Of a DNA stretch of 64,000 bases, positions 4,255-60,316 are shown one piece after another; the first letter of the stretch is position 1; the number at the start of each line of letters is the position of its first letter. The notes beneath the pieces are model-generated. The model had not been told where the DNA came from. It did no database searches and saw nothing but the letters and a program-made list of their open reading frames with translations. A program made the translations under genes and the position numbers. This stretch comes from Sphaerolaimus hirsutus (taxonomy: Eukaryota; Nematoda; Chromadorea; Monhysterida; Sphaerolaimidae): contig OZ038453.1 in the NCBI GenBank assembly GCA_964036195.1, positions 25,258,352-25,322,351 on the forward strand, in the 5' to 3' direction.

Positions 4255-4729
4255 CTTTTCTTTTTGTGAAAGTGTGTGCATAAGTATGGTGATAGTGCAT
4301 TTGCGCGTAAGACAGAAGTATCTGCTGGTGCATACTCTGTTGTCCAAGGAGGTTTTTTATAACTATTGGTATATTGCACATTTTAATACTCGTGATCAGA
4401 ATGTTTGAATCTCGAAAAAAAAAAATACATCCAGTTTATTTCCCGCACCCCTTGAATTTTCCCCACTAAGAATGATGGAAAATCAAATTCACAATTGTTC
4501 TTTGATCGGACGCATTGTTTATATTTCCCGACTCCCCAAATTTTTCTGGAACACCGATACATTGTAAAATGTGTTCAGTCGATACGTATGGACAAGTAAT
4601 TATAAAAAAATGTTTCATACCAAACCTGTGCCCAGCTCTCAATCCGACAACTTAATCAAAATTTCAGAAACATTGACTCGCTAAGTCTCGGGTACCCGAC
4701 AAAGTTTCGGGTAAAGTAGATCTTCTACC

Positions 4730-4945
4730 AAGGGCAGACTCAGATAAGATACAATGCCCTGTAAAAGTTCAATGTCATGCACGGTATCAAAAGTCATGTA
4801 AAATGCCTTGTAAAATGTAAAATGTCATGCAAAGTGTCCAGACTCATGTAAAATGCTGTAAAATGAAAAACGCACGTTTGCCATTTTCCAGGACATTTTC
4901 CATGACATTTCACAATTTACAGAGTTCGAGACTGCCCCCAGAGCA
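4730..4945. mobile_element. Family B element
   Basis: Iterated CCTGTAAAA / ATGTCATGCAAAGTGTC words with a degenerate left end and a right end TTTACAGAGTTCGAGACTGC. A CCCGA-rich repeat lies just upstream (4,680-4,715). Confidence 0.7.
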
Positions 4946-19945: not shown

Positions 19946-21159
19946 GCGCCAATGTTCTAGCCATAAATTGACGCGTGTAATCAAGTAATTTTTAATTCAA
20001 AGTGACATGATGAACTTTTGTTACATGCGCGTCCCGGGGCAATTTTGATCACATTTTCACATTTTCAATGTCGGGGCCTAAACATTTTCCCATTTTTCAC
20101 ATGGCCAATACAAATGGGATTAAACTTGTCGGCGCCTGGTTTAATTGAATTTCGTTTTGTTACCGTTCGATGGATTTTATTTACTTGGTTCACATGAAAG
20201 TTTACATGTACTCATCTAGATGTTTTGTAGCCCTGCAAACTATTTAGTTGACGGCCGAATTTTCAACAACTGTTTTCCACACAGTTGAGTTTACCTGAAT
20301 AGATTATTTTAGATCTCCGTCAACTACTGTCTACTCAATTTCGGTCAACTCGTTCCGGTAAACTCTTCGCGGACAACCCATTCCGGTAAACTAAGTGCGT
20401 TCAAAAATGTTTTAACAGTTTACGAACTTTCTGCCGCAAATTAGAATGTTTTATGGCCATTTTTTGCACAATACTTAGTCTTTTAACTTATTTCAACAAG
20501 TTTACCAAGCAATATGCAATTAGTATTAATTATGCAATCAAAAAACACTCACTATTTTTGAATTCACTTTCCTCCCTCCTAAACCAATCTCTCTATGTTT
20601 AAATATAACCAAAGTCAAACTCAAAACTGTAAAAACATCCGTGAAGACACTGGTGCATCTTTACATGAGATGCCTGTTGCATTGCTTCGACATGTCCCCG
20701 GGGCATTATTTCGCCCTGCGCTTCTGTGTGCTACTCGAATTTAAACCCGACTCGAAAACCCCGGAAGTTTCGGGTCGGGTCGGGTCGAAATTCTTGTTTT
20801 TGGATTCGGGACTAGTGATAGAAAAGGCGCCATGACTTGGCGCCAAGCGCTGAAAAATTTAAAGCGCCATATATAGCTGAAAAATTTTCTGGGGGGGTTG
20901 GGGGGGTTTGTGGGGGGGGGGTTCGCGGGGGTTCAATATGTAGGCATAGAAGGGAAGAAAAGGAGAGAAATCGCTGAAAGTAGGTGAAAAATGGCTAAAA
21001 ATGGGTATATAAGGACATATAGTACTAAAAATAGCTGAAAATAGGCAGTTAGATGCATGAATTTTGGAGGTGAAAATCTATATAAAGGTTTGAAAAATAG
21101 CGATTTTGAGCGAAAATAAGGGTATAGGTTCTCAAAAATCGCTCGAGATAGGTAGCAGG

Positions 21160-21510
21160 CTGACCGCGAGATATAATATATTTCATTATAACACGTAACA
21201 CGCAAAAAATTGCGGCTATAACCCGCGCAAGACACGATCGTTATTTGTTTACGTTAAAAGAGGTCACCTGGAGTCGGTATATGACCCGTCTGAATGAACG
21301 ACCCGCTAATTGCGCGCACAAAAAAACGCTATTATTTAATGACACGCAACGCGACGGGTTATACTCTAATTACGTGACAAAAGGTCAAGGCCGTAAAGTT
21401 GATGCGGGTAAACCAAAACTCATAACGCGGACTAAATTCGGGTTATACCGAATTTATAACACGTTACGTTTGTTCTACAAAGGAACTATTTTTTTGTAGC
21501 TCCATCTGGC
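21160..21510. repeat. TTATAACACG-rich element
   Basis: Shares AACACGTAACACGC-like words and a CTGACCGCGAGATATAA end with 36,170-36,470, where the inverse TTCTCGCGGCCAGCC occurs. Probably one more transposon family; no gene seen. Confidence 0.5.
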
Positions 21511-21567
21511 TGTGGCGCCATTTTTATTTCCCTTTAGTAACTACTTATAATTAAAATAGTGCATGTA

Positions 21568-22420
21568 CCGTATTTCTTCGATTTTATTGACTGTTCATTT
21601 ACATTGGCTTGCTCGTTTACTCTGCCGGGTCTGTGGGGCATCCGAAAAATACATTGCCATGTTCAAATACATTGGTGTATGAAAATATCGATGTATAATT
21701 ATCCCATTAATCCTTTATGTTTGCCACTTTCGGAGTCTGACAACTCCACCGCTGCGACAATTTACCTAATTCATGATGAATGTAACGTGGAGTTTACATT
21801 AAAAATATTTCACATTCATGTTTACTTTACAAATGCACATGAAAAATAGATTCTGGAACATACATTGCCATGCTCATTCACTTTGCCATGCTCATTTACA
21901 TTGCCCCCCACCAAAAAGCTTACGAAACAATACATTGCCGGTCAAAAAAATCGAAGAAATACAGTATTTCTATTTTTCTGGGTAGGTATTTTACGTTTGT
22001 TCTACAAAGGAATGTAAAAACAATCAATTTTTTCACACATTTTTCATCTGAACAACATGCTGCGCGACTGCGCCAGCGACATGGCGAGCTTAGCGCTATA
22101 TTGCTGTGGCGCTTGGTGCCACACCCATGAAAAGCGCCATGGCGCCAGGAACAAAACGTCTGGCGCTGGTGCTTGGCGCTTGCAACATACATTGCCATGC
22201 TCATTCACTTTGCCATGCTCATTTACATTGCCCCCCACCAAAAAGCTTACGAAACAATACATTGCCGGTCAATAAAATCGAAGAAATACAGTATTTCTAT
22301 TTTTCTGGGTAGGTATTTTACGTTTGTTCTACAAAGGAATGTAAAAACAATCAATTTTTTCACACATTTTTCATCTGAACAACATGCTGCGCGACTGCGC
22401 CAGCGACATGGCGCCGGCAT
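21568..22420. mobile_element. Family A element (ATTGCC subtype) with internal direct repeat
   Basis: Starts ACCGTATTTCTTCGATTTTA. A segment of about 218 bases (21,866-22,083) recurs at 22,192-22,412, each ending in ACATGCTGCGCGACTGCGCC. The word CATTGCCATGCTC is iterated. A family C patch lies between the two repeats. Confidence 0.7.
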
Positions 22421-22683
22421 GCACGGCCCACACTATCATTTTATTTATAATATAGCCAATTCGTTGAAAAGACATGAATTCATTTGCAATTTGTATCACA
22501 TCACGTGTCGCATGGGGGCGTTTTTCATTTTCGTTTTTCGTTTTTACGCACTATGATGCACTGTGGCACAAGTGATGTGTGTAATGTATGTACGTATGAG
22601 TAAAAAATAACATTTTGGCGCCCTTTTTGGGCAGGGCGCCACGCGCCACGGTTTTCAAGGGGTTCAGTGTTTTTTAGTTAGGG

Positions 22684-22904
22684 TCATTTAATGACCCTAA
22701 CCGTCAAATAGTAATATTCACCACGACCCTGCGGCGGCTCCGGCCGGTCCGCGAGACATGGCAAAATATAGTCTCCAAGACGAACATCCAATACAGTTTT
22801 AGCCTGGTCGTCAAAAGCGTTCGAAACATAAACTTTGCGGGTTCGAGTCTCAATGTCAATGTAAGACGCGTGGGCGTGGCCGTGGGCTATTCCTGTTTGG
22901 ATTT
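22684..22904 (-). CDS. Conserved small coding piece, copy 1 (apparently intact)
   Basis: Minus-strand open frame with no ATG inside, containing YIDIETRTRKVYVSNAFDD, then QAKTVLD and a Tyr-rich end (EYYYLTVRVIK) stopping in the flanking palindrome. The other copies keep the same frame in this core with mainly conservative changes. It may be an exon, with AAACAG| as a possible acceptor. No family recognised. Confidence 0.5.
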
Positions 22905-23218
22905 AAGTCACGTAAATCGCTGCATGGATACGTAACCCGCAATTTATATATATTGTGGGTTCACTAGTCCACTGCTACACAACTAAACAATTCGCCATGG
23001 CGCTTTTGGCATACGAGCGCCAAGCGCCAATGGTGCCGCAGCAAAATAGCGCCAAAAGCGCCATGGCACCCAGTTTCAGTTGATATTTTAAGCACTATGA
23101 TGCACTGTGGCACAATGTACGTATGAGTAAAAAATAACATTTTGGCGCCCTTTTTGGGCAGGGCGCCACGCGCCACGATTTTCAAGGGGTTCTGTTTTTT
23201 TATAGTTAGGGTCATTTA

Positions 23219-23417
23219 ATGACCCTAACCGTCAAATAGTAATAATTTCCCTGCGGCGGCTCCGGCCGGTCCGCTGGGCGGAATAAACTACATCTCGACG
23301 AACACGAGCATCCAATACAGTTTTAGCCTGGTTGTCGAAAGCGACCGAAACATAAACTTTGCGGGTTCGAGTGTCAATGTCAATGTAAGCCGCGTGGGCG
23401 TGGCTCGAGTGCATCAT
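23219..23417 (-). pseudogene. Conserved small coding piece, copy 2 (frame changed)
   Basis: Same core as copy 1 (YIDIDTRTRKVYVSVAFDN) but the frame shifts near RDVVYS, so the Pro-rich and Tyr-rich end is lost. It starts at two consecutive ATGs at a head-to-head boundary with the plus-strand frame at 23,455. Confidence 0.45.
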
Positions 23418-23618
23418 AGTGCGTAAAATATAAACTGAATCTTAACACCGAACCATGCCACCTCAGAAGGACCGGTCGCCGCGGTCGGACATGAGCAAGT
23501 CGAGCATGAGCGGCGCGAGCGGCAGCGACTAGTCCGACGGCGAGACGCAGGCGGCCAATCGCCGGCATGGCCATCCACTGGCCGAAGACACGATATGCAC
23601 TGTGTTTTTTAGTTAGGG

Positions 23619-23839
23619 TCATTTAATGACCCTAACCGTCAAATAGTAATATTCACCACGACCCTGCGGCGGCTCCGGCCGGTCCGCGAGACATGGCAAA
23701 ATATAGTCTCCAAGACGAACATCCAATACAGTTTTAGCCTGGTCGTCAAAAGCGATCGAAACATAAACTTTGCGGGTTCGAGTCTCAATGTCAATGTAAG
23801 ACGCGTGGGCGTGGCCGTGGGCTATTCCTGTTTGGATTT
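23619..23839 (-). CDS. Conserved small coding piece, copy 3 (duplicate of copy 1)
   Basis: Part of the second 935-base unit and almost identical to copy 1, with the frame intact to the stop in the palindrome. Confidence 0.45.
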
Positions 23840-24160
23840 AAGTCACGTAAATCGCTGCATGGATACGTAACCCGCAATTTATATATATTGTGGGTTCACT
23901 AGTCCACTGCTACACAACTAAACAATTCGCCATGGCGCTTTTGGCATACGAGCGCCAAGCGCCAATGGTGCCGCAGCAAAATAGCGCCAAAAGCGCCATG
24001 GCACCCAGTTTCAGTTGATATTTTAAGCACTATGATGCACTGTGGCACAATGTACGTATGAGTAAAAAATAACATTTTGGCGCCCTTTTTGGGCAGGGCG
24101 CCACGCGCCACGATTTTCAAGGGGTTCTGTTTTTTTATAGTTAGGGTCATTTAATGACCC

Positions 24161-24352
24161 TAACCGTCAAATAGTAATAATTTCCCTGCGGCGGCTCCGG
24201 CCGGTCCGCTGGGCGGAATAAACTACATCTCGACAAACACGAGCATCCAATACAGTTTTAGCCTGGTTGTCGAAAGCGACCGAAACATAAACTTTGCGGG
24301 TTCGAGTGTCAATGTCAATGTAAGCCGCGTGGGCGTGGCTCGAGTGCATCAT
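24161..24352 (-). pseudogene. Conserved small coding piece, copy 4 (duplicate of copy 2)
   Basis: Second-unit equivalent of copy 2, with the same frame change and one residue difference (Arg to Cys) in the region after the core. Confidence 0.42.
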
Positions 24353-24389
24353 AGTGCGTAAAATATAAACTGAATCTTAACACCGAACC

Positions 24390-24644
24390 ATGCCACCTCA
24401 GAAGGACCGGTCGCCGCGGTCGGACATGAGCAAGTCGAGCATGAGCGGCGCGAGCGGCAGCGACTAGTCCGACGGCGAGACGCAGGCGGCCAATCGCCGG
24501 CATGGCCATCCACTGGCCGAAGACACGATATGCACCAGTAGGCCACAGTCAGGCCGAAAGCAAAAGCTTATTGATTACTTCGATTCGAAGCCAGGGCCGG
24601 GGACAATGTATGAATTAATGAGACTAAATGAGTTATTTTTGTGA
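24390..24644 (+). pseudogene. Ser-rich open frame with in-frame TAG and PIP-like end
   Basis: From ATG after a TATA-like stretch, this reads MPPQKDRSPRSDMSKSSMSG, a TAG at codon 26, then open again to RKQKLIDYFDSKPGPG and a TGA. KQKLIDYF resembles a PCNA-interacting (PIP-box) motif. The first unit (23,455-23,600) holds the same start and the same TAG but is cut off. It is either a pseudogene, a readthrough frame, or spliced around the TAG. Confidence 0.35.
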
Positions 24645-24940
24645 TTGTGTATAAAAAATGTGCCCATTATTCGTGAATGTTTGTGTTCATTTTATGATTG
24701 TAAATAGTGCTCTACTGCTCTTCTCTCCTCAGGTAAAAATGTATATTCATACTTCATAAATCATATTCATGCGACTCGTTATATTCAATTCATGCTATTT
24801 ACAACAAATATAATGAGAGAGATAAAATGATGACACAATGATCGAGTTAATAATGCAATTTAAAAGGTATCAGAGTGCGGAAAAAATGTAAGGCAAATCA
24901 AATCGCGACTACGAAATACTTCCTACAAATGCATGACAAT

Positions 24941-25069
24941 TTACCGGGTACTAGAACTGAACGAATCACTTTTATGACCGTTACAGCATTTGCCGCACAG
25001 CGCGCATCGTTCAATGACGACCTTGAGACAGCTTTCCTCGCGCTCGACGACCACATCGATCTGCCCGTC
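24941..25069 (-). CDS. Zinc-finger gene exon 7: Cys/His cluster and stop
   Basis: Acceptor TGTTCATGCAG|GAC, phase 0. It encodes an acidic/hydrophobic strand (DGQIDVVVEREE), then CALCGKCCNGH, then a Ser-rich end and TAA. An alternative donor, AACG|GTCATA at 24,978, would continue the gene leftward. Confidence 0.7.
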   Translation of the reverse strand, partial: DGQIDVVVEREESCLKVVIERCALCGKCCNGHKSDSFSSSTR

Positions 25070-28000
25070 CTGCATGAACAGGGGTGAAAATAGTATTCGT
25101 GGTCATCACTCTACCCCCGGGGGTGGGGGGTATTTCGAGGGGGGGGCGGTTTTTTGTTTCACAGGAAATTTTTTGAAATCATAGTACAAAATCGTGGTTT
25201 GTGATGTGCGCTGGGCAGGGTTGGTTTTATAAAAATTCATTTTAGTAAAATTGTATAAAAAATTGTATAAAAATTTTATTTTTATTTTATTCTTGTTTCA
25301 TTTTATTTTTTATTATTCACAAAAGTCATTAATAAAATAAAATGAATGACACATTTTACAAAAATTTTACAAAAAATCAGAATCATGCATGCAAGGCCAG
25401 AAAATTTTTAATTTAGACCTATACATGAAAAACGTGTGACAAATTTTTCCCTTACTTTTCAAAAGTAAGTATTGTCTGTTGTTTTAAGGGGTTTAACCGA
25501 AATCGTCATACCAATGCTTTTGCCACCACACCACAGGCAGACATCAACATGCATTCCCCCCACCCCACTCACTTTGACAGAGTCGTTCAACCAGGACTGG
25601 TGTGCAGGGCAACCGTGCGCCGCATTGAGATGGATGTCGAAACTAATCGTGTCATAAATATAGACACCACAATGCCAGCACTTGTAATAAATGGGTTCCT
25701 GCGGCTTGGGAACGTGCCGGTGCCTAGTAGTACTACCAGACCCTGTAAATTGACGTGTAATATGTCAAATGTCATGCAAAATGTCAAAATTCGTGTAAAA
25801 ATACCCTGGGAAAGGTAAACATACGTAGCCTTTTCCAGGGCATTTTCCAGGCCGTTTGACACTGCATGACATTTAACAAAAATTACAGGGCGATTTACAG
25901 GGTATGGGAGTGCCACCTGTACCACTTATGGATATCATACAGTGTTGGGCTAAGGTTGTCCCAGCTAATGCCACATGAGCATACGTGTTCGTAATCGTAT
26001 ACGACAACGGTGAGCTCATCCATTTTGCGAGAATTATTTTTGCGAATTCCTGTGAATAGAACATCTAAGTTGACAGTGAGTCGTATTCTATGTTTTGGGA
26101 ATTGCGAATGGGAATTCTAATAGTGATGTGATGATGGAATGGCTCTGGCGCCATTTGAGGGCGCCAAAGGGCACAGCGCCATGGCGGCATTGGCGCTTGT
26201 CTCCCCTTATTCTGTGGCACCACTGGCGTCTGTCAGCCACTTTCGATTGGCGCTTGGCGCATTTTTTGCATTGCCCCATTACATCACAATGACGTTTTTG
26301 TTTTTTTTCCACATAAAAATTTATTGGAAAAATTGGTGCCTGGCGCGGCGCGTACATTCCGAATCCGAATGACGCCCTTTTTCTGTGGCGCCCTTGGCGC
26401 TCATCGCCCAATTTCAGAAATGGCGTCATTGACCTATTTTGGCTCATTTCCATCACTGGGGTCTAATTCAAGGATGTTCGGTATCGGTAATACACTTCGA
26501 AAAATGTCAATTCCCAAATATAGAATCACTCGTATTTGATACACGGTATTGAAAACAATCAAATAAGGAAAATATCGATATTATAAATAATAGCACCATA
26601 ATTAGGCGCGAGGGACATGGAAATGACCCGATAGATATTATTTAACAATTGATTTCAACATTTGCCATGGACAGATTTATTTTAATACGGCTCATTACAT
26701 ATAAATGTAAGGAAAATTTCAAACTAATATGTGTCAAAAACCAGCAAAAACAGTGCTAAGTCAGTGCCAACGCAAAAAAACATAATCCTGGGGCCAGTTC
26801 CGCAAGTGGAAAAGTTAAGAGTTAAAAGTGAAGAGTTGAGTAAAATGACAAACGATTTTACTCAACTCTTAACTTTTAACTTTACTCTTAACTTATCATT
26901 TATCATTTCACTCAACTCTTAACTTTTAACTCTTAACTTTTCCACTTGCGGAACCGGCACCAGGGCCCAGGCTAGTCATGTAAAAAGGCACTCGGGGAAA
27001 TGGCACCGCACCGCCCACCGGTGCACCAATCCCGCCCGGTACCCCGGTGCCTTTCCATCACTAAACCTGGCATTTCAGACTCAGAGGTTGTACACATTTT
27101 TTTCAATACGCTCTAATTGGATGTGCCAAACTACATGTCAAACTACCGTATTTGCTTGAATAATCCCTCTGGGGGATTATCATTTCGTCAGACTTTTTGA
27201 GGGGGGAACTAATCGAGGGGGGGGGGGAATTATTCGAGGGGGGGATTATTATTTCGTCAACAATTTCAACCATGTTTCTATCAACTCATTTGATGAAATA
27301 TGCTTTATTCACACAAAAACGTGCTATTTTTGTTCAAATTGGGCACAATAAATAGAGCAAATCTTGTAAGGGGGGGATTATTCGAGGGGGGGAATAATTA
27401 TTTCCTCACTCGTCTTACAGGGGGGAATTATTCGATGGGGGTAATTATTCAAGGGGGGGTATTATTCAAGCAAATACGGTACATACCGTATGGGATTATT
27501 CGAGGGGGGAATTATTTTTTCGTCAACAATTTCAACAATGTTTCTATCAACTCATTTGATGAAATATGCTTTATTCACACACAACGTGCCATTTTTGTTC
27601 AAATTGGGCACAGTAAATTGAGCAAATCTCTTAAGGGGGGGGGGATTATTCAAAGGGGGGGAACTATTCAAGCAAAAACGGTAGTTTATGTCACTGAGTA
27701 AATGACATTGTACAAGACATTTTGAACAGCCTTCAAAGTGACCACACGAGTTTTTATGAGAAATACCCAAACTAAGAACTGAGGAATACCCATACACAAA
27801 ATCAAGACAACACTTAGGCATTAGCGCATAGCAATAAACATTTCAATGTCTGTACCTCTTCCTAAGTCCACATCCGCATTCACACATTTTCGCACCATGC
27901 AGATTTCTCATCATTTTCTTAAAGTTGGCGTTGGAAAGCCCGCTGTGTGCCCGCATCGCAGGAAACACCGCGCGATCCATGGCCTCGAGTTCGGATGGCC

Positions 28001-29684
28001 TGCGGGGCAAGGGAAGGGGGCTGAGGTGAGCTCAATGTAAAATTGAATGGATGGAAATACATATGGCTGTGATGTAAAGTGGCAGCCATTAAAACATCAT
28101 ATTCATTGCAAAACATGATGTATGTACCTTATTACACACACACGGGGGTGTCGAGTGGGGTTTATTTTTCTCCCAGCTCGCGCAGACCTGAGGTATTTCG
28201 AAGGGGACTTAATTCAAGTGGTATTTGGAGCAAAAACGGTAACGTATTGCTCTTATAAAAAAGCTTCTGTTATGATATACCTGCTAAAATAGTGTCTTAT
28301 TGTTGGCGCCATTTTGGCGCCCGGCGCCATTTTATTCTGGGGCCCTTTAGCGCCCGGCGCCATTTTCCTTGGCGCCCGGCGCCATTTTCCTTGGCGCCCG
28401 GCGCCGTTATTTTGAATGACACCAGGGGGCCATTGGCGCCTGGCGCTATTTTTCCTGGCGCTTTTCCATAACTAGTCCCCACACCACTGACAGCTGATTG
28501 TCAAAAATGTACAAAAACGAGTTGCCTCACTTGAAGAACTTTCTCATGCTATCGGCGAGCGATACCAATATCCTGTACGCGCTGACCTGCCCGTTGACCG
28601 AGCCATGACCACCAGCCAAACGTTTTTTCCTGCAGGAAAAAGGGGTTTGGATCAGCTCATACAAATGCACAATGCATTTAATACAAATTCATTTAACGAG
28701 GTGACTCACTCAATCGCTCTGATCCTAGTGTCGAGGGAGCGCCGGTCTACTATCTGGATCACTTTGACCGCAACAGGCATCCTGCTAGTCAGTCTCATCA
28801 GGTACGCTTTGCCGTTGCACACTACAATCTGCGGTGGATATTCATATGATGGATATGAAAATGGCGCGATCTTAAAAGGTCAATCCCGATCCCTTTCCCA
28901 AAACTTTGAAAATCCAACAAGTTCGGCAAAAACGTGTATACCGTATTTACTCGAATAATGCCCCCCACTTGAATAATTCCCCCCTCGAATAATTCCCCCA
29001 CTTGAATAGTTCCCCCCCCCCAATGACGGAAGGTAGACAATGCACATTCTTTTAACAAAAAAACAATCCATGAAGTCAAAGCATGCAAAAGATCTGTACT
29101 TTGAATCATGGAATGGAAATGTGGTACATCGGAGTGTAAAGCTGCAATGTTAGGTATGTGCAGTTCCAATGGAAACAGGGCATACATGTGTATGTAATGT
29201 GATAAAAACATGCTTAAAAATTGTGTCGAAATAATAATCCCCCTACTTGAATAATTCCCCCCTCAAAAATGTCTGACGAAAAAATAATTCCCCGGGGGAA
29301 TTATTCGAGTAAATACGGTATTTGAATGTTTTCAAAAATTACAATCCCGAAAAAATACCCAACAATCCCAATTCCGAAGGGTCAATCCAGATCCAGAAAT
29401 ATAAAATAGCAATCCCGATCCCGAAAAGTCAATCACGTCAAGAACACACGTCACAAACATGATCAAACAATCACCTTAAGGAAGCCTCAAACTTAGCTAA
29501 ATAAACCAACCGAATCATCCGCATTGATCTCGTAAATGTGTCCGTGGCCTGGAAGATATTTATCGGTAGAGTAATCGGGCGGGAGAGAGCTCAGAAACTG
29601 GATCATCGGCTCCAAGGGGGAAAGCTCGTTGACCGTCCCAGACATGATGTTGATGCTGAACGATTGACCTTGATGCTGATGCTG
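24941..29684 (-). CDS. C2H2-type zinc-finger protein gene, seven exons
   Basis: Minus-strand gene with exons 29684-29511, 28828-28710, 28629-28531, 27999-27896, 26049-25917, 25723-25573 and 25069-24941, all phase-compatible, giving about 290 residues. The N-terminal half has no recognised domain. Two zinc fingers follow: a variant (C-x-C, then H-x4-H: CSCGISWDN and DIHKWYRH) and a regular C-x2-C-x12-H-x4-H finger (YKCWHC to HLNAAH). A Cys/His cluster (CALCGKCCNGH) lies near the end. A nucleic-acid-binding role is inferred from the fingers only. The start codon is either ATG at 29,645 in the first listed exon or in an unseen upstream exon. The stop is TAA at 24,943-24,941; a donor at 24,978 could instead extend the gene. 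One intron is exactly a family B transposon. Confidence 0.78.
25100..25185. repeat. Family A fragment
   Basis: TATTTCGAGGGGGGGCGG block with no opposite end; lies just upstream of the last zinc-finger exon, in its intron. Confidence 0.6.
25573..25723 (-). CDS. Zinc-finger gene exon 6: canonical C2H2 finger
   Basis: Acceptor ACTACTAG|G, donor GTCAAA|GTGAGT. It completes finger 1 (His) and holds a full C-x2-C-x12-H-x4-H finger at YKCWHC to HLNAAH. Confidence 0.85.
25724..25916 (-). mobile_element. Intron consisting of one family B element (introner-like)
   Basis: The whole 193-base intron between the two zinc-finger exons is a B element. Read on the minus strand it starts GTGGCACTCCCATACCCTG, ends ATTTACAGGGTCTGG plus a short ACTACTAG tail, and its two ends are inverted repeats. 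The flanking exons complete a zinc finger across the junction in phase, so the element is removed by splicing. Confidence 0.82.
25917..26049 (-). CDS. Zinc-finger gene exon 5: variant finger 1
   Basis: Acceptor CTATTCACAG|GA, donor GGTACAG|GTGGCA; phases 1 and 2. It contains the variant finger C-x-C with the His pair completed across the next splice junction. The intron starting here is a family B element. Confidence 0.82.
26120..26455. mobile_element. Family C element
   Basis: TAGTGATGTGATGATGG at left, CATTTCCATCACT at right, GGCGCC/GGCGCTTGGCGC arrays between. Lies in an intron of the zinc-finger gene. Confidence 0.75.
26790..26966. mobile_element. Family L inverted-repeat element
   Basis: GGGGCCAGTTCCGCAAGTGG to its inverse at 26,940-26,964; the stem is built from AACTCTTAACTTTTAAC repeats. 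Confidence 0.75.
27144..27685. mobile_element. Two adjacent family A elements (TTGAATAATCCC subtype)
   Basis: TACCGTATTTGCTTGAATAA and inverse CAAATACGGTA, then TACCGTATGGGATTATTCG to CAAAAACGGTA. The two share a 100-base inner block (TTTCAACAATGTTTCTATC) and iterated ATTATTCGAGGGGGG words. Confidence 0.78.
27896..27999 (-). CDS. Zinc-finger gene exon 4
   Basis: Acceptor CTTGCCCCGCAG|G, donor CTGCATG|GTGCGA; phases 2 and 1. Helical sequence with FKKMMRNLHG, similar to the helix half of a zinc finger, though no Cys pair precedes it. Confidence 0.72.
28303..28475. mobile_element. Family C element, short
   Basis: Arrays of GGCGCCCGGCGCCATTTT ending in GGCGCTTTTCCATAACTA. Sits in intron 3 of the zinc-finger gene. 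Confidence 0.72.
28531..28629 (-). CDS. Zinc-finger gene exon 3
   Basis: Strong acceptor CCCTTTTTCCTGCAG|G and donor TTCAA|GTGAGG; phases 2 and 2. It encodes KKRLAGGHGSVNG and a helix-like segment (LVSLADSMRKFF). Confidence 0.75.
28710..28828 (-). CDS. Zinc-finger gene exon 2
   Basis: Acceptor ATCCACCGCAG|ATT, donor ATTGA|GTGAGT, phase 0 in and 2 out. It encodes a basic/hydrophobic segment (VVCNGKAYLMRLTSR). Intron 1 before it holds a complete family A element. Confidence 0.72.
28938..29321. mobile_element. Family A element in the first intron of the zinc-finger gene
   Basis: TACCGTATTTACTCGAATAA to the inverse GTAAATACGGTA with iterated TTGAATAATTCCCCC blocks. Confidence 0.8.
29511..29684 (-). 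CDS. Zinc-finger gene exon 1 (N-terminal)
   Basis: Acceptor ATTCACTTTCAG|CAG and donor GATTCG|GTTGGT, 58 codons in phase 0. A His/Gln-rich start precedes an in-frame ATG at 29,645. The sequence after it (LSPLEPMIQFLSSLPPD) looks like ordinary coding DNA. Confidence 0.72.
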
Positions 29685-30045
29685 CTGAAAGTGAATTATT
29701 GTAAAAGTGATTTCGCGTCGCAGACAAAATTAGACATCATACATAAAACAAGACATCATACGTGGTGCGATTCTTTTGAACAATGATTCATAAATGTATC
29801 AATTATATGACATCATTTTTAGCTTCGTGGAGAGAAATAAAAATTTTCTTGAATTACAAAAAATAGAGACTAGCTATGAAACCTTTTTGTGTAAATATTT
29901 GAGCTGATTTGATGCTGCCAGAAAATTTTTTAACTTCATTGCTCATTTCTGTAATGAGAAACAACACAAAGAAACATAACTCCAGCTCTGTACGAGTGTT
30001 TATGTGTGCGAAAACTTTCGAGCGTCATTTTCGAGCGTCAATTCA

Positions 30046-30737: not shown

Positions 30738-33700
30738 GTCAGCGTTCGGTTTGTTGTCTTTGGCGTTCGGTTTGTTGTCTTCAGCGTTCGGTTTGGTTTG
30801 TTGTCTGGTACTGGCCCGGCAAATTGGAACATTCCTTTCACTGTGCAGCGGAAGTGTCCTAATGTGTAAAAATACTGGGCGTGAGCATGACATTCAAAAA
30901 ATTTGTCTGACATTATATTGCGTCTCGACATTGGGTGGGTGTATTTTTTGGGGTGAGAGGGTTACCCGACTGCAACATTGGTATTATACTCTAGTTGAGA
31001 GCGGAAATGTCCGAAGTTGAAAAATCTGTTTTATACGTATGAATTTACTGGAATGAATAATTTTTAATCTCGGTCGTCCCGGTCTTCTCATTCCTGTAAA
31101 CTCAAATGCGCCAGACAGATCCATCAGCCTTGGCAGTTTGCCACCGTCAACTAGTTCGCGTATCATCAATGTCCGTTCACCCAATGTGTGTTGACCAATG
31201 AGCAACCTCTGTCCGTGTCGCAGGAGAGCGTGGAGAAACGAAGGACGCAACGAAAAGAAGAAACAATGTGTACCACTACATTGCCTGAGCCGACCAACCA
31301 GACAACCCCCAATTTTTGATTGAAACTGGTACCATTCACAGACACTGTAAAATGACTTGTAAAATGTAAAATGACACTGTAAAATGACATTGTGTGTAGG
31401 CAGGCATGGTTGGCTGATGTTTTTTTAAAAACGTTTTTATTTAAAAAAACGTGTTTTTTAAAACATGGCTTCCGAATTTTTTTTTTAAAAACATCGACCG
31501 AAATTTTTAGTACTAAGCACTAGGTATTTTGCAAAATTTTTGCGTGCAAGCGCGCAATTTCACACCCAAATTGACATTGGTGGTTGTTTTCATTGGTTTT
31601 GTGGCATTTTTAGTATCAAAGTATCCATTTTTATATGCTACCATGGGTTAATAAGCTGTCATATGTCGGTGTAGTATATAATATTGAGGTAATGTGCTTC
31701 CATATACCTCCACAGAGTGTAACTTCACTCCCAAAGTAACAACCTCCTTTTTTAACCTTGTTTCATCACTATTCCGTGCCAAACTTAACCTGAAGTCACG
31801 AACATTCGACTATAACATATATAACATCACCGAGTATTGCCACTGTCTGATATACCTATATATGTTGACACAAGGTCATATCTGGGAGCGTTTAAAAAAA
31901 ACGTTTTTTTATTTAAATAAAACGTTTTTTATTAAAAAACACGTGTTTAAAAAAACATGGAGTTGAAAAAAAAACGTTTTTTTCAAACCCTTATTGTGTG
32001 TTAAAAGTCATGTGTCAAAAAAGTGTTGGAAGTCATGGAAAATATCAATTTTGATTTTAATTTGTCATGACGTTTTTCATTTTGACAATTGACATGACAT
32101 GCAAAACATTTTACATTTGACAGCGTGTTTACTGTTCAGGGTCTGTGAGTGGCACCTGGCTGTATTGATTGTTGAGTGGCTCACACTGTGTTCCCACATT
32201 GTTTCCAACTCCCAGACCCTGGAAAATGTAAAATGTCATGAAAAATGTCAAACCACCGGTAAAAAGTATTACGATGTGACATTTTATGAAACGTTGTACA
32301 TTACTTGACACATTACAGAGTCTGGGACTGGGAGTCGCACCTGATATGCATTTGCAAAATTCAATTTGCACTATCAGCACTGTCTTGCTATGTGCTATTT
32401 TGTCACATCTTTTTGTTGTTGTTTGTGTTGTTGTTGTGAGTGTAATTTGGTATGGTGTTTCTATTCGAATGAAATAAATTTTGTGCAATTCAAATGTGTT
32501 TGAATAAAATAAAATGTTGTCAATATTGTATTTTTGTTTATTTATGCTAACACTTGCTTGGTGGCATGTATTGTGCACTTATTGTTTAATTAATTTTTGC
32601 TTAGTTTTTTTTGCTAGGGACTAGGGTCCAAGCGTGATAACCATCCCGAGATCTCCTTCAGGCTAGATCCGGTTATCTAGTCAATAGTCAACCCTAACAT
32701 GTCTTTTTTGCACTGTGTGCTTTTTTGCACTGAACTGTGTTGTTCTAACATTCCTACACTAACAATTTCTGAAAATCTGCCATTTTGTCAAAGAAGCGAT
32801 AGTAAGAATGAAACTTGCATCTGACTGTGTTTTAGGTCTTTTTATGAATAATTGGTGAAAAAACATATTCCAATGCTGATATCAAAATTACAAAAAAAAA
32901 CAGCCGTAGCCCCTCAATCCCTGTCAGAAATCTGACAAAGTCAATACCATTTGAACCGTGTTCCCCATCCCTAATTTCCAAAGTCTTAATCCCCTATCCC
33001 GAAATCCCCCAAAAAAACTAGCTTGATGCCTAAAACTCTATCCCGCTTGAATCCTGGCGGTAGTCTCAAGACCTGTTAAGTGTCAAAAGTTCCAAAATAG
33101 GTACCTAGTGCATGTGTGCATTTGACACTTTACACGGCTTGGGATTGCCACCTAGTCTTAGTGCTAGTGGTGATAGTTAAATGGTGTGTCGTGTCGTGTG
33201 TAACAAATAACACCCCTATTTTCACAGTTTTTAGTTTCTACAACCAACAAGATCTCACCAGTCAAGTCACCAAAATGGTCAGAATCGCGCCCGTGAACTG
33301 GAACCAGCGTCAGGAAATGGGTGTTCTAGTCAATGATGGTGCGTTTTGGTATTTGTGTGTGATGCCGTTTTTGTGTTGGTGTTTTTGGTGCGTATCCAGC
33401 ACAGCAAGTCAAGTGGGCTGCAATGCAACCCCTCGTCCCCCTTGGAAATACCGATTCACCAATACTGCGTATTGCACGTACGTAATTAGCTGCCCATAAG
33501 TGCCGCGAGTCAAGTAACTTATACCTTTTGATTTTGCCACTGTATACTTTGCATTCGCATCTAAACGTTACACGCTGACAGTTCACTGACAATAAGCTGA
33601 CATGCATTTGTTTACGGTTGTCAGCGTATGTCATCCGTCTGTCAGTGCACTGTCAGCGTATGTCATCGAGAATGCTTTGCATACAACATACAGCTGTCGG

Positions 33701-47900: not shown

Positions 47901-50900
47901 GCAGTTTTGCAACCATTCCCACAAGTGGAAGTTATGTCTGGAACGAGTGTGGTCCCTTGCGCATCGACGGGTTGACTTCTGGTGCTTACATTCGTACCGC
48001 TGGTGCAGGAAAATTGCCTGTGAACATAAACGATAGTTACAGATTTGTAGTCTGGCTATTCTGAATGACATGTGAGGAAACTTTTGAATAGGTCCCGGCC
48101 CGGGAGCAGAATATGAGGAACCCACCACACCAAGGTTAATGTCCACCTCGTTCCAGGTTATGGTATGTGAGGTATGACGTCATATATTTTTCCGGAAAGT
48201 GTCCGGAAAGGATCACGGTAGCTGTGGTGACGTCATGATGTTATTGTTCATGTGCGTCTACCATAATCCATCAAAAGAATTATGGTAGCTGCAAATGACG
48301 TCATTACAACAAAGACATAACTGCCAACAATAACATCAGGACGTCACCACAGCTACCGTAAACCTTTCCGGACACTATCTGGAAAAAATATATGACGTCA
48401 TACCTCACATACCGTAACCTGGAAGGAGGTGGACATACCTTGGGTGGTGGATTAAAGGTTCCTTATATTCTGCTCCCGGGAGTGTTTTGTTGTTTCATTG
48501 GATGAGTCAGGGACCAAAACAATTTTCATGGGTCATTTCGGGGGAATTTTTCCGGAGGGGGGAGGCTTATATTCAGGGGTCTTTTTCCAGTGGGGACTTA
48601 TATTCACAAACATTTACAGTCGATTGCAAAACCGCACCTTTTTGCATTCACCACTGCGCCACCATCAACAATACATTCATTAACACAATCTTCAATTTGA
48701 GTCACATTATTTTTGTCCGAATTCAATCTCTGCTCTTTTCTTCCATCGCCATTAATAGGCATACATCCGTTTTTGGTTTGAGTGTCAGTGAGGGTCAAAG
48801 TAGAAGAAGTACCAGGGGGCAGTCCCAGACCCTGTAAAATGACATGTAAAATGTCTAATGTCATGCAAAGTGTCAAAATTCTTGTAAAATGCTTTGTAAA
48901 ATGTCAAACGTCCTGTAAAATTCACAGTAAGAGGTCAAATTTCATGCAAAGTGTCAAATGTCCTGTAAAATGACCTTGAAAATGTCAAATGTCATGCATG
49001 GTCAAAAAGTCACGCAAAAAGTCCTGTAAAATGTCAATAACCATGCAAAGTGTCAAAAGTCATGTAAATGCCCTGGACAATGTAAAATTTTACATATCAT
49101 TATAAATACGAGACGTTTTACACTTTGCATGACATTTGACCTTTACTGGGCATTTTACATGCCGTTTGACACTTTGCACCGCGCATGACATTTCAGAGTT
49201 TACAGGACATTTCACATGCCTTTTCGCATGACATTTTTCATCTTACAGATCATTTTACAGGACATTTGACGTTTGACATTTCACAGAACCTACAACATGA
49301 ATCTTTCCACTTTGCATCACATTTTACATTCTCCACAGCATTTTACAGGGTCCGAGAGTGGCACCAGCTTTTCTACGCGGGTTAATATCGGCTCTTCCCA
49401 ATTGAAATCCCCCGGATTTGTGCAGCAGTATGGAGGCGATTTGCACGTACAGAAGGAGCATGATTATCAAGGGGAATAAGATCGCAGTGCCCACTACGAA
49501 ACGGTAGCTGTGTAGGGGGTGGATTTTATGTTTAAGTTTGAGTTATGGCGTGACATATACCGTATTTCCTCGAAATAACCCCCGGGGGTTGATTGTTTCA
49601 GAGTGAGAATTTTGAGGGGGGGGGTTAAACGAGGGGGGTATTTCGAGGAGGTGGGTAATTATTTCATAGTGTCCATTTTGAGGGGGGGGGTATTTCGAGA
49701 CGGGGGTATTTCGAGGGGGGGGGGGGTATTTCAAGGAAATACGGTAAGTGGATGAACGCAATGTATTGTTGTAAAACGTAATTACGTTTAATCGATCAAT
49801 ATGTATACTCGAGTACTGCATAAATTTGGAAATTTCATAAATCAGCATTGAAAGCATTTGAGTTGACTGAATTTTTTTGAATCCCCATCAGCTGCAGTTG
49901 ACAGACACCTCATTCGAGTAAACTCAGGTGTGTTCACAGCTGATATATGAGTTTTCAAAATTGTTCATTTTTCTTCAAGTATAGCTCTGTAATTTGTCAT
50001 GTTGAAAATACTAATTAATAGCCAGGTAATGTTATAGAATGAGCCAAATCTTATGCAAAAGAACTTGAAATGACTATTATTACCAATTTATCATGTGATT
50101 TTTATATTGTAATATTAAATATGGTCCCGAGCAAAGCATGCAGAAAATCCTGCCCTATAAAAAGAGTATAACAAACCTTGCTTTAAAATAGAACTTTATC
50201 TCACTGCAGTACTCTGATCTGAATGCCTGATCAGGCACAGAGAAGAAAAATATGGCAAATGCCATTGGGGGAAGTAGCCACAAACAGATGCACAAAAGTA
50301 GAGATTTTGATGCTGATGCCTGGGTGTAGAGATTTTAATTTGATATGAAAGTCTGTTAAGCTTATGTATGTTTACCTAATTATTTACTATATAAACACCA
50401 TAAAAATGGATCTGAATTTTTATTGATGTATAGCCAACACTACCCCACCATACACAAGCATGGCAGGTGCCACAACTATGAAACTTTTTTTGGGACTGCC
50501 AAACTTGTCTTGTAGTGCCATGCCGAAAATCCCCCCACTAAGTGGCAGACGAGTGGCAGACGCACAGTGGAAAAGCAAAAAAATTGTTGCATATTGGTGA
50601 CTCACCCAGTAGTGATTTGCAGTGCCCCCAAATCCATGCAATGTAATGTAGTGGGTTGCACAGTTGTTAAAATGTACGTACATTTACTCGAAAAATACGC
50701 GTACGCGAGTACGCAGTAAATACATTTACATATACTTTTGAAAAAAATTAATGTACTCACTTTTACGTGTACATTTTAAAAGTACACGCGTACAAAGAAA
50801 ATGTATTTTGTTGCTAAATTTAGGGTTCGGATGATATATCGTATCGAATATCGAATATCGGATATCGACTATTTTTTCATATCGAATATCGAATATCGGA

Positions 50901-53579
50901 TATCGACTATTTTTTCATATCGAATATCGATATCGAAAATTTAAAAAAAATATTGAATATGGATATCAAATATCGACCATTTTTTCGATATTCTATACTC
51001 CCTGGGCCTGACGTCAAATAAGCCAAGAATGGCACTATTAGAAGGCGATTTCATAAGCAATACTAACAAATTTTGCACGCAAGCGCGCACTTTGCTCTCA
51101 CATGACAGGTATTTTTGTTTCAGCACTTGCGGCAGCATCAAATCTTGTGCAAATGCTCTCTCAGATGTTCACATAAGAGTATATGTATGTTAAATAGCTA
51201 CTTACACAATGGAAACATCAGTGGCACCATGGCATGGCACCTATAAATTGGGCTGGCACCTTCCTTACCACATCTGTCACATTTTTAAATCATTTTACCA
51301 TTTTGACCATTTTACCATTGTGTGCCATTTAAATTTGTATCATCTACTTTTCAGTAGAGATGATCAGTTGGGTTTGTGATCAGATGGGAATGCAATGTGC
51401 CAAATGAGATATGCCCTGCTATACCACAAGCAAAATATCGAAATATTGAAAATACCGAAATATCGATATCGAATATCGAGCATTTTTTAATATCAATATC
51501 GAGGGTCCATATCGTATCAATATCAAATATCGAGTTTCAGAAAAAATATCGATTATCGATATGGAAAAGTCATATCGTCCCAACCCTGGCTAAAATCACA
51601 TTTTCTGTTGCTAAAATAACAAAATTTTGAAGAAAACATATCATTTTTCTAAAAAATAGAATACGATCACTAAAAACAACGACATCTATTATGCCTTTCA
51701 GAGTAAAACTGACACTCTCACGTGTAAAGTAGTAGCTTTTACGTTTTCCAGGGGAAAAGTACTAGCTTTTACATTTTTCTGGGGAAACAAGTATTTTACT
51801 CACATTTACACATGAGTATGAGTAAAAAAAGTATTTGACATTTTCTATACTTGGTGATGAGTAAAAATAAAATACTTACATTTACTAGACTTTTTAAAAA
51901 AGTTCAGTAATTTTAACAACTCTGGTGGGGTGTTATGCACACACATATGTCAGCTATTTCCCCAAATATCAGCTCCTTATCCCCCCACAGCAGGAGATAT
52001 GGTTTTCACAGTGAAGTCAAAAACCGCCTGCCGAACTTGACTGGGAAGGCGTATAAAACGCTATTCCCCCAATCACCCCCCCCCCCCCAACCCAACCTTC
52101 TGCGCCAATCTAAGGGGATGTCTGATGGCCATGTGGTGGTTGTGAGCGAGCGCGAGCAGGTGCAGCACGCTGGTGACCATGGCGCCCAGCCGCACAGACT
52201 CCAGCCCCAGCCCCCAGCACGTCTCCCACGCACCCGCCCACCGCACTGAGAGGACCTGGGGGGGGGTTGATTGATAGAGTGAATTTGAATTATGGTGTTT
52301 GGTTGAATGATTCCCACTTTGAATAATTCCCCCCTTTTGTACAACCCCCCCCCCCTGTAAGACGATTCCCAGAAAAACAATTCCCTTGAATAATCTCCTT
52401 CAAGGCACATTGTTGTGTTGACAATTCAAATTTGAACTAAAATGGCATATTATTGTGTTAACAGAGCATATTTTATATAATGAGTGGATAGAAACATGCT
52501 TGATCATTTTGACAAAATAATAACCCCTACCATTGAACAATTCCCCCTAGAATATAGTTCCCCCTCGAATAGTTCCCCTCTCAAAGAAGTCTGACAAAAA
52601 GGAAATTATTCAAGCAAATTTGGTACACTAAAATGTAATTTCCAAAAACTGCAGTTTATGACCTGTGTAATGTCGTTATTCTTGCATTTTTCTAAGTGTG
52701 TGTGCGTTACAAACCATGAATAAATAAGTACGGGAGTTCAAAAAACATTGACAAATGAATAACACCCTACAATAACCCCTCGAATAACCCCCTCAAAATC
52801 CGCACTCTGAAAAAATTACCCCCGAATCGAAAATCGAATAAATACGATAAATCTCCCAAATCAACACCCCCCAAACCTGTGGCAACAAACTCTGTGTAAA
52901 AAAACCCGCAGCCAATGCAACACTAAGCCACGCATCCGCGGCACAAAGTGACAATGTAAAAACCATTGGTTGTTTAGGGGGCCAATTCGGTAGAAAACAC
53001 ACTGCCGACATCAAAATTAGACCATTTAAACCGGCGGAAAATAGACAAAACAGCATTAAAAGTGGCACCACGATTACGTAGTAGCGTTTTTTTAGCAGTT
53101 CGTAGCGAGTGCTGTCGTTCGATGTCGAGTTGACATCTGAGCGGGTTGAATTTGAGTTTGCGGTAAGTTTAATTGTCAACTGGGTGCTTGTGAAATGGGG
53201 GTAGAGATTCGATGGTCCTACACACGCCAGTTGACAATGACATCGGGTGTCAACTGGGCCGACTGGTTTCCATTCAGATTTTAGTTGACGGGTAGTCTAA
53301 CCATGTTCAAATGCACAAAATTCCTTCCTTTTCGATATTGCGTTTTCGATATGCACTTGAAAATTGCCTTGTTACCCGTCAACTAAAATGTGAATACATG
53401 GTAACTAGTTGACACCCAGTGTGCGTAGTGCCAAAATGTCACACACCTTTAAACTCAATTGTCTGATTAGCCTTTTTTTCAATCCCATATACCTTTGAAG
53501 TTTCTTCAGAGCTCTGACATTGTGTAAACCAAATCGCCAAAAATGCAATTGCAAAAATCACATAGAATTTTTTTGTCAT
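41885..53579 (-). CDS. Orphan class A GPCR, 12 exons, complete gene model
   Basis: Seven-helix G-protein-coupled receptor of the plasma membrane, read on the minus strand. Exons: 53579-53447, 53136-52877, 52255-52097, 50319-50177, 49507-49365, 48854-48638, 48017-47822, 47558-47331, 47056-46897, 42867-42672, 42608-42472, 41955-41885. Reading phases agree at every join, and the model runs from ATG to TGA, about 680 residues. Features in order: signal peptide; N-glycosylation sequons; TM1 with Asn; TM2 with LSLCAAD; TM3 after Cys; TM4 with Trp; second outer-loop Cys; TM5 with FP; a third inner loop of roughly 230 residues over several exons; TM6 with GWLP; TM7 and helix 8 with NAYVY. Long loop 3 resembles amine receptors (family knowledge), but the ligand is unknown. 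Odd: NHH replaces DRY and NAxxY replaces NPxxY. The join at 49365/48854 is the least certain, because a family B element fills that intron. Confidence 0.88.
42472..42608 (-). CDS. GPCR exon 11: cytoplasmic tail
   Basis: Acceptor TTTAAATTACAG|C, donor GATTACAG|GTAAAA, phases 2 and 1. Polar tail sequence with Ser, Lys and Asn. The preceding intron is only 63 bases. Confidence 0.78.
42672..42867 (-). CDS. GPCR exon 10: rest of TM7 and helix 8
   Basis: Acceptor AAATTTACAG|CTCTGG, phase 1. It encodes TM7 with N-A-Y-V-Y where NPxxY is usual, then helix 8 (AARNAEIQMALLNLF) and Cys residues that could be palmitoylated. Donor TAAAAA|GTGAGT. If this donor were not used, translation would stop at once with TGA. 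Confidence 0.85.
43445..44377. mobile_element. Long-ended family C element (933 bp), perfect 8-bp duplication
   Basis: TAGTGATGGAAAAGCGCC to GCCATTCCATCACTA; each end is a GGCGCC array of over 200 bases, the middle is single-copy-like and matches that of the 56,923 copy in patches. The duplication tacgcggc is at 43,437-43,444 and 44,378-44,385. Confidence 0.92.
45163..45981. mobile_element. Family E element nested in a family G element
   Basis: TAACGATGGGTAAG to TTTCCATCGTTG flanked by gctgtggg (45,155-45,162; 45,982-45,989). The flanks rejoin as a family G element. The left half is the TTTTGAGTTTTT palindrome arm. Confidence 0.82.
46897..47056 (-). CDS. GPCR exon 9: TM6 and start of TM7
   Basis: Acceptor TTTCCAG|GTAACT. 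It encodes the basic TM6 start (RRNIRAAST), TM6 with GWLP in place of CWxP, outer loop 3 and the first turns of TM7 (SPVLTI). Donor ATCG|GTTTGT, phase 1, joins in frame to exon 10 about 4 kb away. Confidence 0.85.
47150..47306. mobile_element. Family B element inside a receptor intron
   Basis: CCAGTCCTGTACACTGTAAAG at one end and ACATTCTACAGTTCCCTTGAC at the other. It fills more than half of the 274-base intron between exons 8 and 9. Confidence 0.72.
47331..47558 (-). CDS. GPCR exon 8: Ala/His-rich end of inner loop 3
   Basis: A 76-codon exon, phase 0 at both sides, acceptor CTCAAAACAG|GCC and donor GCTAAA|GTGAGT. GC-rich, encoding a low-complexity segment rich in Ala, Ser, His and Gly. The opposite strand is also open, but only this strand has good splice sites that fit the receptor frame. 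Confidence 0.7.
47822..48017 (-). CDS. GPCR exon 7: inner loop 3, second part
   Basis: Acceptor TGTTCACAG|GCAATT and donor CACAG|GTGAGA, phases 2 and 0. It encodes a polar, acidic loop ending in a basic patch (LKNRRHTQ). No repeat sequence lies within it. Confidence 0.8.
48638..48854 (-). CDS. GPCR exon 6: inner loop 3, first part
   Basis: Open frame encoding a polar Ser/Thr/Asn-rich, Cys-containing loop. Donor AAAAAG|GTGCGG in phase 2 fits exon 7. The 5' edge is uncertain: frame agreement points to TTAG|AC at 48,855/48,854 inside the family B element. Removing the element exactly would join the codons as well but would end the intron in TG instead of AG. Confidence 0.6.
48816..49364 (-). 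mobile_element. Family B element filling receptor intron 5
   Basis: On the minus strand it starts GTGCCACTCTCGGACCCTG at the splice donor and ends TTTTACAGGGTCTGGGACTG just before coding sequence resumes. The interior is iterated TGTAAAATG / CATGACATTT words. Confidence 0.8.
49365..49507 (-). CDS. GPCR exon 5: TM5 and start of loop 3
   Basis: Acceptor CCCCCTACACAG|C. It encodes TM5 with the conserved Pro in ILFPLIIMLLLYVQI, then a basic start of inner loop 3. The donor, GCTG|GTGCCA, is at the very end of a family B element, so the intron begins where the element begins. Confidence 0.83.
49559..49746. mobile_element. Family A element in receptor intron 4
   Basis: TACCGTATTTCCTCGAAATA to GGAAATACGGTA, with TTTCGAGGGGGG and TTCATAGTG blocks. 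Confidence 0.82.
50177..50319 (-). CDS. GPCR exon 4: TM4 and second outer loop
   Basis: Acceptor CACCCAG|GCATCA, donor GCAAG|GTTTGT. It encodes the short inner loop 2, TM4 with the conserved Trp (CLWLLPPMAFAIFFF) and the outer-loop Cys (SEYCSE) expected to pair with TM3. Phase 0 in, phase 2 out, matching its neighbours. Confidence 0.85.
50659..51924. mobile_element. Family F element in receptor intron 3, split by another element
   Basis: CAGTTGTTAAAATG at left and TTTTAACAACTCTG at right, with near-matching duplications gtgggttg / gtggggtg. The interior is interrupted at 50,821-51,588. Confidence 0.72.
50821..51588. mobile_element. CGATATCG-rich hAT-like element nested in family F
   Basis: TAGGGTTCGGATGATATATCG-like left end and ATATCGTCCCAACCCTG right end; duplications gctaaatt / gctaaaat (7 of 8). 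The interior is iterated ATATCGAATATCGATATCG. Confidence 0.78.
52097..52255 (-). CDS. GPCR exon 3: TM3 with noncanonical NHH motif
   Basis: Acceptor follows a C-rich tract, CCCCAG|GTCCTC, phase 0; donor CAGAAG|GTTGGG. It encodes the conserved TM3 Cys (ETCWGLG), helix TM3 (MVTSVLHLLALA), then HNHHMAIRHPL where D-R-Y is usual. GC-rich and free of repeat, unlike the flanking DNA. Confidence 0.88.
52877..53136 (-). CDS. GPCR exon 2: extracellular N-terminus, TM1, TM2
   Basis: Acceptor CGCTCAG| and donor CCACAG|GTTTGG. It encodes sequons N-S-T and N-D-S, then TM1 (hydrophobic run with the conserved Asn in GLNG), then TM2 containing LSLCAADAWLS with the conserved Asp. An earlier donor 14 bases upstream would break the frame with exon 3. 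Confidence 0.88.
53213..53431. mobile_element. Family D element in receptor intron 1
   Basis: GGTCCTACACACGCCAGTTG to CACCCAGTGTGCGTAGTGCC, with GACGGGTA arms inside. Confidence 0.75.
53447..53579 (-). CDS. GPCR exon 1: start codon and signal peptide
   Basis: Begins ATG ACA AAA and encodes a basic start followed by a hydrophobic run (FYVIFAIAFLAIWF) typical of a signal peptide, then a short polar stretch with an N-Q-T sequon. It ends AAAG|GTGTGT in phase 1, which fits the phase of the next exon. The intron after it holds a family D inverted repeat. Confidence 0.8.
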
Positions 53580-59769: not shown

Positions 59770-60316
59770 AACCCCCTCGAACAAGCTCCCCTTCGAACAA
59801 CCCCCCTCGGATTAACCCTCCTCAAAATTTGCTAGGAAAATAATTTACCCCCAGGTGCCAATCCCAAGCCCTGTAAAGTGTAAAGTAAAATGTCAAATGT
59901 AAAGTAAAGTGTCAAGTCAACTGTCAAATGTAAAGTAAAGTGTCAAGTCAAATGTCAAATGTAAAGTCAAGTGTCAAGTCAAATGTAAAGTAAAGTGTCA
60001 ATTGTGTATCCAAATCTTTTTTTTCGTATCCAAATCATGTTTTTGTATCCAAATCTTATTTTTTTGACATAAGATTTGGATACAAAAATATAAGATTTGA
60101 ATACGAAAAATAAGAGTTGGATACACAATTGACACTTTACTTTACATTTGACTTTACATTTGACACTTTACTTTACATTTGACATTTGACTTTACATTTG
60201 ACACTTTACTTTACATTTGACATTTGACTTGACACTTTCGTTTACATTTGACACTTTACTTTACACTTTACAGGGCTTGGGACTGCCCCCTGGGGGTATC
60301 TTAAGGAAATACGGTA
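59770..60316. mobile_element. Family A element carrying an inserted family B element
   Basis: CCCTCGAACAAGCTCCCC at left and GGAAATACGGTA at right. B (59,865-60,295) runs from GGTGCCAATCCCAAGCCCTG to CTTGGGACTGCCCCC, with a GTATCCAAATCTTATTTTT hairpin at its centre. Confidence 0.75.

Follow-up and report, generated by a model that had tools for sequence, protein, structure and literature searches.

The locus raises the question of whether a complete intron of a protein-coding gene can be a single mobile element. The window (the whole stretch of DNA that was analysed, 64,000 nt long) had been read from its letters as holding such an intron in a zinc-finger gene; the proposed intron is on the minus strand. 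Analysis of the window together with the whole assembly favours this reading: with a probability of roughly 0.84, a MITE (a non-autonomous DNA transposon with inverted repeats) that targets CWG was inserted into an exon and became the intron. The element, family B, apparently carries splice signals on its ends, so that copies in genes can be spliced out, and the flagged intron appears to be one worn copy among many.

Structure of the proposed intron: The minus strand reads ...GGTACAG/GTGGCACTCCCATACCCTG ... CAGGGTCTGGTAGTACTAC/TAG/GCACCGG across the intron (slashes mark boundaries). The 193 bp were resolved into the element (190 bp, 25727–25916) and one 3-bp copy of the target-site duplication (TSD; 25724–25726), with no intron base outside these two; the acceptor AG thus derives from the duplicated target. 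The claim that all 193 bases are element, from the first to the last, was therefore correct for the edges, which coincide exactly with element plus TSD, and needed correction at one end, where the last three bases are a TSD copy. The terminal arms (25727–25761 and 25882–25916) are 80% complementary over 35 nt. The window copy is the most diverged of 27 aligned copies, differing from the majority sequence at 20.1% compared with 4.2–11.6% for the others. Positions are collected in Table 1.

Table 1. Positions of the flagged intron, its gene and the longer family B members in the window.
Feature	Position	Strand	Remarks
Proposed intron, GT...AG	25724..25916	-	193 bp; joined frame open; not in paralogous exon L038
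Element B copy, near-palindromic	25727..25916	-	190 bp; 25916 is the donor tip (GT), 25727 the tip on the acceptor side; from 27-copy alignment and inverted arms
Inverted-repeat arm, acceptor side	25727..25761	.	35 nt
Inverted-repeat arm, donor side	25882..25916	.	35 nt
Target-site copy CAG, closes upstream exon part	25917..25919	-	family TSD is CWG
Target-site copy TAG, gives 3' AG	25724..25726	-	differs from CAG by one change
Upstream part of interrupted exon	25917..26049	-	follows acceptor CTATTCACAG; aligns with L038
Downstream part of interrupted exon	25573..25723	-	precedes donor GTGAGT
Second exon of flagged gene (...CECGCGLRKR)	27855..27998	-	conserved in paralogs: 67% in L030, L031, L032, L034
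First coding exon (MSGTVNELSP...)	29511..29645	-	conserved in paralogs: 56–68% in L024–L034 copies
Duplicated block containing flagged gene	21155..29732	.	near-identical on contigs C13 and C238
Longer B relative	31329..32155		~827 bp; family tips beside CWG
Longer B member	48816..49364	-	549 bp; family tips; CAG and CAG flanks on plus strand
Longer B member	59855..60289	+	435 bp; CAG/GTGCCA...TGCCCC/CTG

Interrupted exon and its paralogs: In a tblastn search of the genome, the matches included three near-identical copies and, on contig C2, a paralogous exon without interruption (L038). The joined window exon and L038 were aligned end to end (53.4% protein identity over 88 columns, no stop), and L038 carries no insert; its start follows a CAG acceptor in the equivalent position, both exons end in ...K/GTGAGT, and L038 is shorter by two codons, near the junction. 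The predicted joining of the exons in phase was thereby borne out, since the frame is open once the element and one target copy are removed and the product aligns with an intronless paralog. The zinc finger said to be completed across the junction fared less well: its C and H positions are conserved in the paralog, but the joined protein matched no Pfam family at E 0.05, so the name describes a C and H pattern only. In the fetched DNA of the paralogs L029–L034 no counterpart of the interrupted exon was found, though exons 1 and 2 are present.

The identical 193 bp occur at three places in the genome because the gene lies inside a duplicated block (21155–29732, 8.6 kb). The block recurs on C13 and C238 at 99.9% identity; its edges are sharp, and no target duplication is clearly seen. 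The three copies were rejected as independent evidence and are counted once. Internal tandem copies were seen in this block around 22–24.5 kb, as well as a different palindromic element at 26787–26964 (70-nt inverted repeat with 91% complementarity and a 38-nt spacer). The paralogs L030, L031, L032 and L034 lie in a second repeated unit (98–99% identical over ~7–9 kb; contigs C470, C314, C15 and C6), an arrangement that points to a gene family that is mobile or was duplicated recently.

Family B in the window: The estimate of about 20 copies agrees with the 21 similarity clusters that were found, of which only the flagged copy spans both ends of the ~190-bp form. Terminus-like sites numbered 17, compared with 0.02 expected by chance. 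Three longer members share the family tips beside CWG (Table 1), and other clusters are fragments in non-coding DNA. An open frame resembling part of a G-protein-coupled receptor was noticed by eye on the minus strand at 52793–53296.

Family B in the genome: The 348-Mb assembly (762 contigs) was searched, and the window copy was aligned with copies from 26 other places. The family begins GTGCCACTCCCAGACCCTGTAAA and ends TTTACAGGGTCTGGGAGTGCCCC, and in most cases CAG or CTG adjoins it at either end. Apart from L050 and L060, which are one locus seen twice, the flanks in this alignment are unalike, and similarity stops at the exon edge. Exact donor (GT) tips were matched 1,161 times after CAG (601+560) and 978 times after CTG (483+495), 2,139 times in total; a reversed-pattern control gave 0 in each case. 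The layout of the window copy recurs across the genome in hundreds of exact-ended copies.

Among 568 full-length exact-ended copies, the TSD on the far (acceptor) side was CAG in 364 and CTG in 204 (p=1.9e-11); on the near side it was CAG in 305 of the 568 (p=0.085). Copies with matched TSDs were divided into 279 CAG..CAG and 178 CTG..CTG (p=2.7e-6), and those with mismatched TSDs into 85 CTG..CAG and 26 CAG..CTG (p=1.7e-8). Because mutation at the middle base affects both strands alike, these imbalances are difficult to account for unless AG is selected, and the 85:26 ratio is as selection for a 3' AG would predict. A CTG..CAG copy presents AG at its 3' side on either strand; the reading with GT first is consequently based on the contrast of 279 with 178.

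The tips also differ consistently: one is GTGCC, and the other, next to the second target copy, is GCCCC. CAG-flanked copies had a GT donor tip and a CCCC acceptor tip in 279 cases, two CCCC tips (GG/CCCC) in 2 and two GT tips (GT/GGCAC) in 11. The two ends of the near-palindrome thus diverge just where the splice signals would lie; inheritance from a single asymmetric ancestor could look the same.

Copies in recognisable genes: Forty-five places were sampled, namely the window copy, 26 places found by similarity to it and 18 taken as every tenth listed pattern match on contig C1 (nine of the CAG type and nine of the CTG type). Five of the 18 were dropped when the second end was not found, which left 40 located copies; two of these, L050 and L060, have common flanks. 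GT stood first in 37 of the 40, and the TSDs were CAG..CAG in 14, CTG..CTG in 12, CTG..CAG in five and CAG..CTG in two, while in seven at least one TSD was not CWG. For a Pfam scan, 35 GT-first and 32 reversed joined frames were used, part of them chosen by eye and the rest being the longest for each orientation. Domains crossed the junction at or above the cut-off in 6/35 GT-first frames compared with 1/32 reversed frames, a preference of orientation that is suggestive only.

In ten of the sampled copies the flanking sequence encodes a recognisable protein domain that becomes continuous, in phase, once the copy is taken out; of these, seven are GT..AG, two are GT..TG and one is reversed. Pfam matches at or above the cut-off were obtained for five GT..AG copies, in Peptidase_M13_N (peptidase M13; L048), Sulfate_transp (sulfate transporter, SLC26; L052), COMM (L053), Lustrin (L055) and PRMT5_TIM (PRMT5; L068), for one GT..TG copy with a CTG end in Neur_chan_LBD (nicotinic receptor, nAChR; L016) and for one reversed element in a DNAJC2-like Myb/SANT domain (L051); comparison with PDB sequences gave no gap at the junction in L016, L051 and, weakly, L068. 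An ASC channel (L049, GT..AG) was matched below the Pfam cut-off, and a potassium-chloride cotransporter (KCC; L059, GT..AG) and a class B GPCR (L058, GT..TG with a CTG end) were matched by PDB sequences. Removal of the exact-ended copy restores the conserved domain in L048, L052, L053, L055, L059 and L068, where the putative introns were deduced by us and not taken from an annotation. No in-frame GT-AG pair was found by hand in L016 or L058, and the boundary GT is missing from reversed copies, L051 among them; these three of the ten either splice otherwise or are broken alleles. A glutamate receptor match (L047) ends two residues short of the junction, PDB sequences gave no match for L063, and L066 was rejected as a domain-crossing case when its SIRT6 homology was seen to stop before the junction. 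The nicotinic-receptor exon (contig C14, local positions ~4448–4928 of the oriented stretch) contains two close B copies: the full copy is CTG..CTG, with the join INIA/WFPF, and a shorter one just upstream is CAG..CAG, its removal giving IWRP/DVLLYNSAD by eye.

Phase was examined in the 40 copies by counting frames with 30 aa or more free of stops to either side of the exact join and of joins shifted by 1 or 2 nt. GT-first copies with a 3' AG were open in 18/21 cases at the exact join, compared with 13/21 and 10/21 when shifted; with a 3' TG the counts were 7/15, 6/15 and 5/15. Copies read in the reverse sense also showed a phase signal when they had a 3' AG (15/19 exact versus 10/19 and 9/19 shifted); with a 3' TG the counts were 8/20, 8/20 and 7/20. 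This signal, like the slight preference of orientation, weighs against the GT-first reading. Reversed insertions on CAG sites, like L051, may hence also lie in the coding sense.

Taken together, the fit of intron to element plus TSD, the intronless paralog, the rejoining of domains in phase elsewhere and the genome-wide excess of AG on the acceptor side uphold the proposal that one transposon probably supplied the whole intron, that is, acted as an introner.

The exact position of the donor is a less certain part of this reading. The donor at the boundary (GTGGCA/GTGCCA) is weak, and a GTAAA donor sequence stands in frame 18 nt inside the element. Splicing might instead start from CCT/GTAAAT, 18 nt inside, which would leave six element codons in the mRNA, or from TG/GTACAG, 6 nt upstream. 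In either case the intron would still be a product of the element, though not from its first base. The inner site draws support from an offset of 18 nt that keeps the frame and is free of indels in the alignment, from a family tip that is free of stops in three frames (by hand) and from the reversed copies, such as L051, that lack a boundary GT. Use of the upstream site would remove 6 nt more and give the same length as the paralog L038. Against both stand the retention of GT at one specific tip in 37 of the 40 located copies and the rarity of copies with two acceptor tips (2 versus 279), and pairing with U1 is expected to favour CAG/GTG over CCT/GTA, which counts against the inner site. We consider a donor away from the boundary to be unlikely, if the strongest of the competitors.

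Less likely again is an insertion that is not spliced at all, in which the gene copies would be broken or hardly expressed and the open frame would be left from a recent or tolerated insertion. The flagged gene does belong to a multicopy, duplicated family and lacks a Pfam match, and CTG..CTG copies occur in coding sequence too; yet the copy is 20% diverged while the exon halves are open and 53% identical to the paralog, and the enrichment of AG on the acceptor side is genome-wide. Somewhat lower still we rate the idea that family B merely prefers GC-rich coding DNA with CWG, with the excess of AG arising as a side effect when target copies are formed or repaired by the transposase. CTG..CTG copies are indeed common (178) and some lie in coding exons, but a strand-symmetric process gives no reason for 279 versus 178 or 85 versus 26, and the phase signal is found in copies with a 3' AG and hardly in those with a 3' TG. 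That an ordinary older intron later received a B element whose edges coincide with it by chance is very improbable: elements do insert into introns, and other clusters in the window are fragments in non-coding DNA, but nothing of such an intron is left outside element and TSD, the paralogous exon has no intron at this position, and the exact fit recurs in other genes.

Under the introner reading, a MITE transposed into a CWG target within the exon, presumably mobilised by a NuwaI-like transposase (PHIS superfamily). The sequence itself shows that the element starts with GT and that the 3-bp target was duplicated: CAG closes the upstream exon part, and beyond the far tip lies the second copy, which now reads TAG. 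The outcome, CAG/GT...TAG/, is in phase with the reading frame. The GT tip would then serve as donor and the second target copy, when CAG, as acceptor, and the spliceosome would remove the element and one target copy exactly, keeping the old coding sequence. Retention in genes would favour copies whose far target copy is CAG. The copy in the window is old, as its 20% divergence suggests, and was later carried along in the block duplication.

A broader version of this scheme is put forward tentatively, as something we would not bet on at present. NuwaI-type tips would act as a dedicated donor and a dedicated acceptor, completed by the CWG copy, in hundreds of introns and in both orientations. 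GT-first copies would be spliced exactly; for reversed copies on CAG sites only the GTAAA donor 18 nt inside would be usable, which would leave six codons. Some CTG-ended copies would splice at TG until T changed to A in the target copy and mended them; the 85:26 ratio would thereby be explained.

Intron gain in animals is poorly documented, and the 2022 survey found introners in only two animal groups. Family B brings together, in a single animal genome assembled to chromosome scale, far more than a thousand donor tips, and its copies in conserved genes include both canonical and non-canonical ones. It would allow a direct measure of which features (target copy, tip, orientation) turn an insertion into an intron, and would tie intron gain to a named transposon group.

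Introners derived from DNA transposons are known, the two animal groups having been found among 835 animal and land-plant genomes according to the account cited (PMC9860276). In Chrysochromulina, as the legend of Fig. 2C has it, the element brings the 5' splice site and a 4-bp TSD the 3' one (PMC9860276). The suggestion that a B-type introner is new must accordingly be narrowed, since element-made introns, including those with a TSD-supplied 3' splice site, had been described in that source; what stands is that a literature search, which did not extend to a 2025 introner survey, found no introner with CWG sites or tied to NuwaI. Family B resembles the introners of that account in being a repeated element whose ends are the intron ends, with terminal inverted repeats (TIRs), short TSDs and insertion into exons; it differs in its 3-bp CWG target, its near-palindrome with two differently specialised tips and its animal host, and whereas the introners described there are supported by RNA, the B introns are proposed here from genomic sequence (PMC9860276). 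That the host is an animal is indicated by its nAChR, class B GPCR, KCC and ASC-type genes.

The NuwaI group of PHIS transposons is described as having the TSD 5'-CWG-3', TIRs that usually start with GGG and a length of ~4.5 kb, and has been reported only from animals; the paper itself states that its methods may miss MITEs (PMC4482050). Family B shares the CWG target sites; one of its tips is GGGGCA and the other GTGCCA (GTG for GGG), and its members, as seen, measure 113–827 bp compared with ~4.5 kb (PMC4482050). Target sites and tips fit a place near the NuwaI group of PHIS/Harbinger transposons. Autonomous members of that group have a DDE transposase and a Myb/SANT partner. At least 163 matches to the Harbinger-like transposase domain DDE_Tnp_4 were found in the genome; the one copy fetched as a possible autonomous partner was without B ends, and among the matches listed on contig C1 none was seen by eye near a listed B tip. 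In many matches of this transposase family (G000, for example L062), 147 aa are spread over 633 nt, and in-frame stops recur in the same number; introns are the probable cause.

A further parallel is the tunicate Fritillaria, where 95% of introns do not follow GT/AG and where a possible source is named in introner transposons that carry weak splice sites (PMC13326754). Introns outside GT/AG are thus possible in an animal; unlike in Fritillaria, as portrayed there, ordinary introns inspected here by eye have GT/AG ends, and another rule would be needed only for some B copies, those that are CTG-ended or reversed (PMC13326754).
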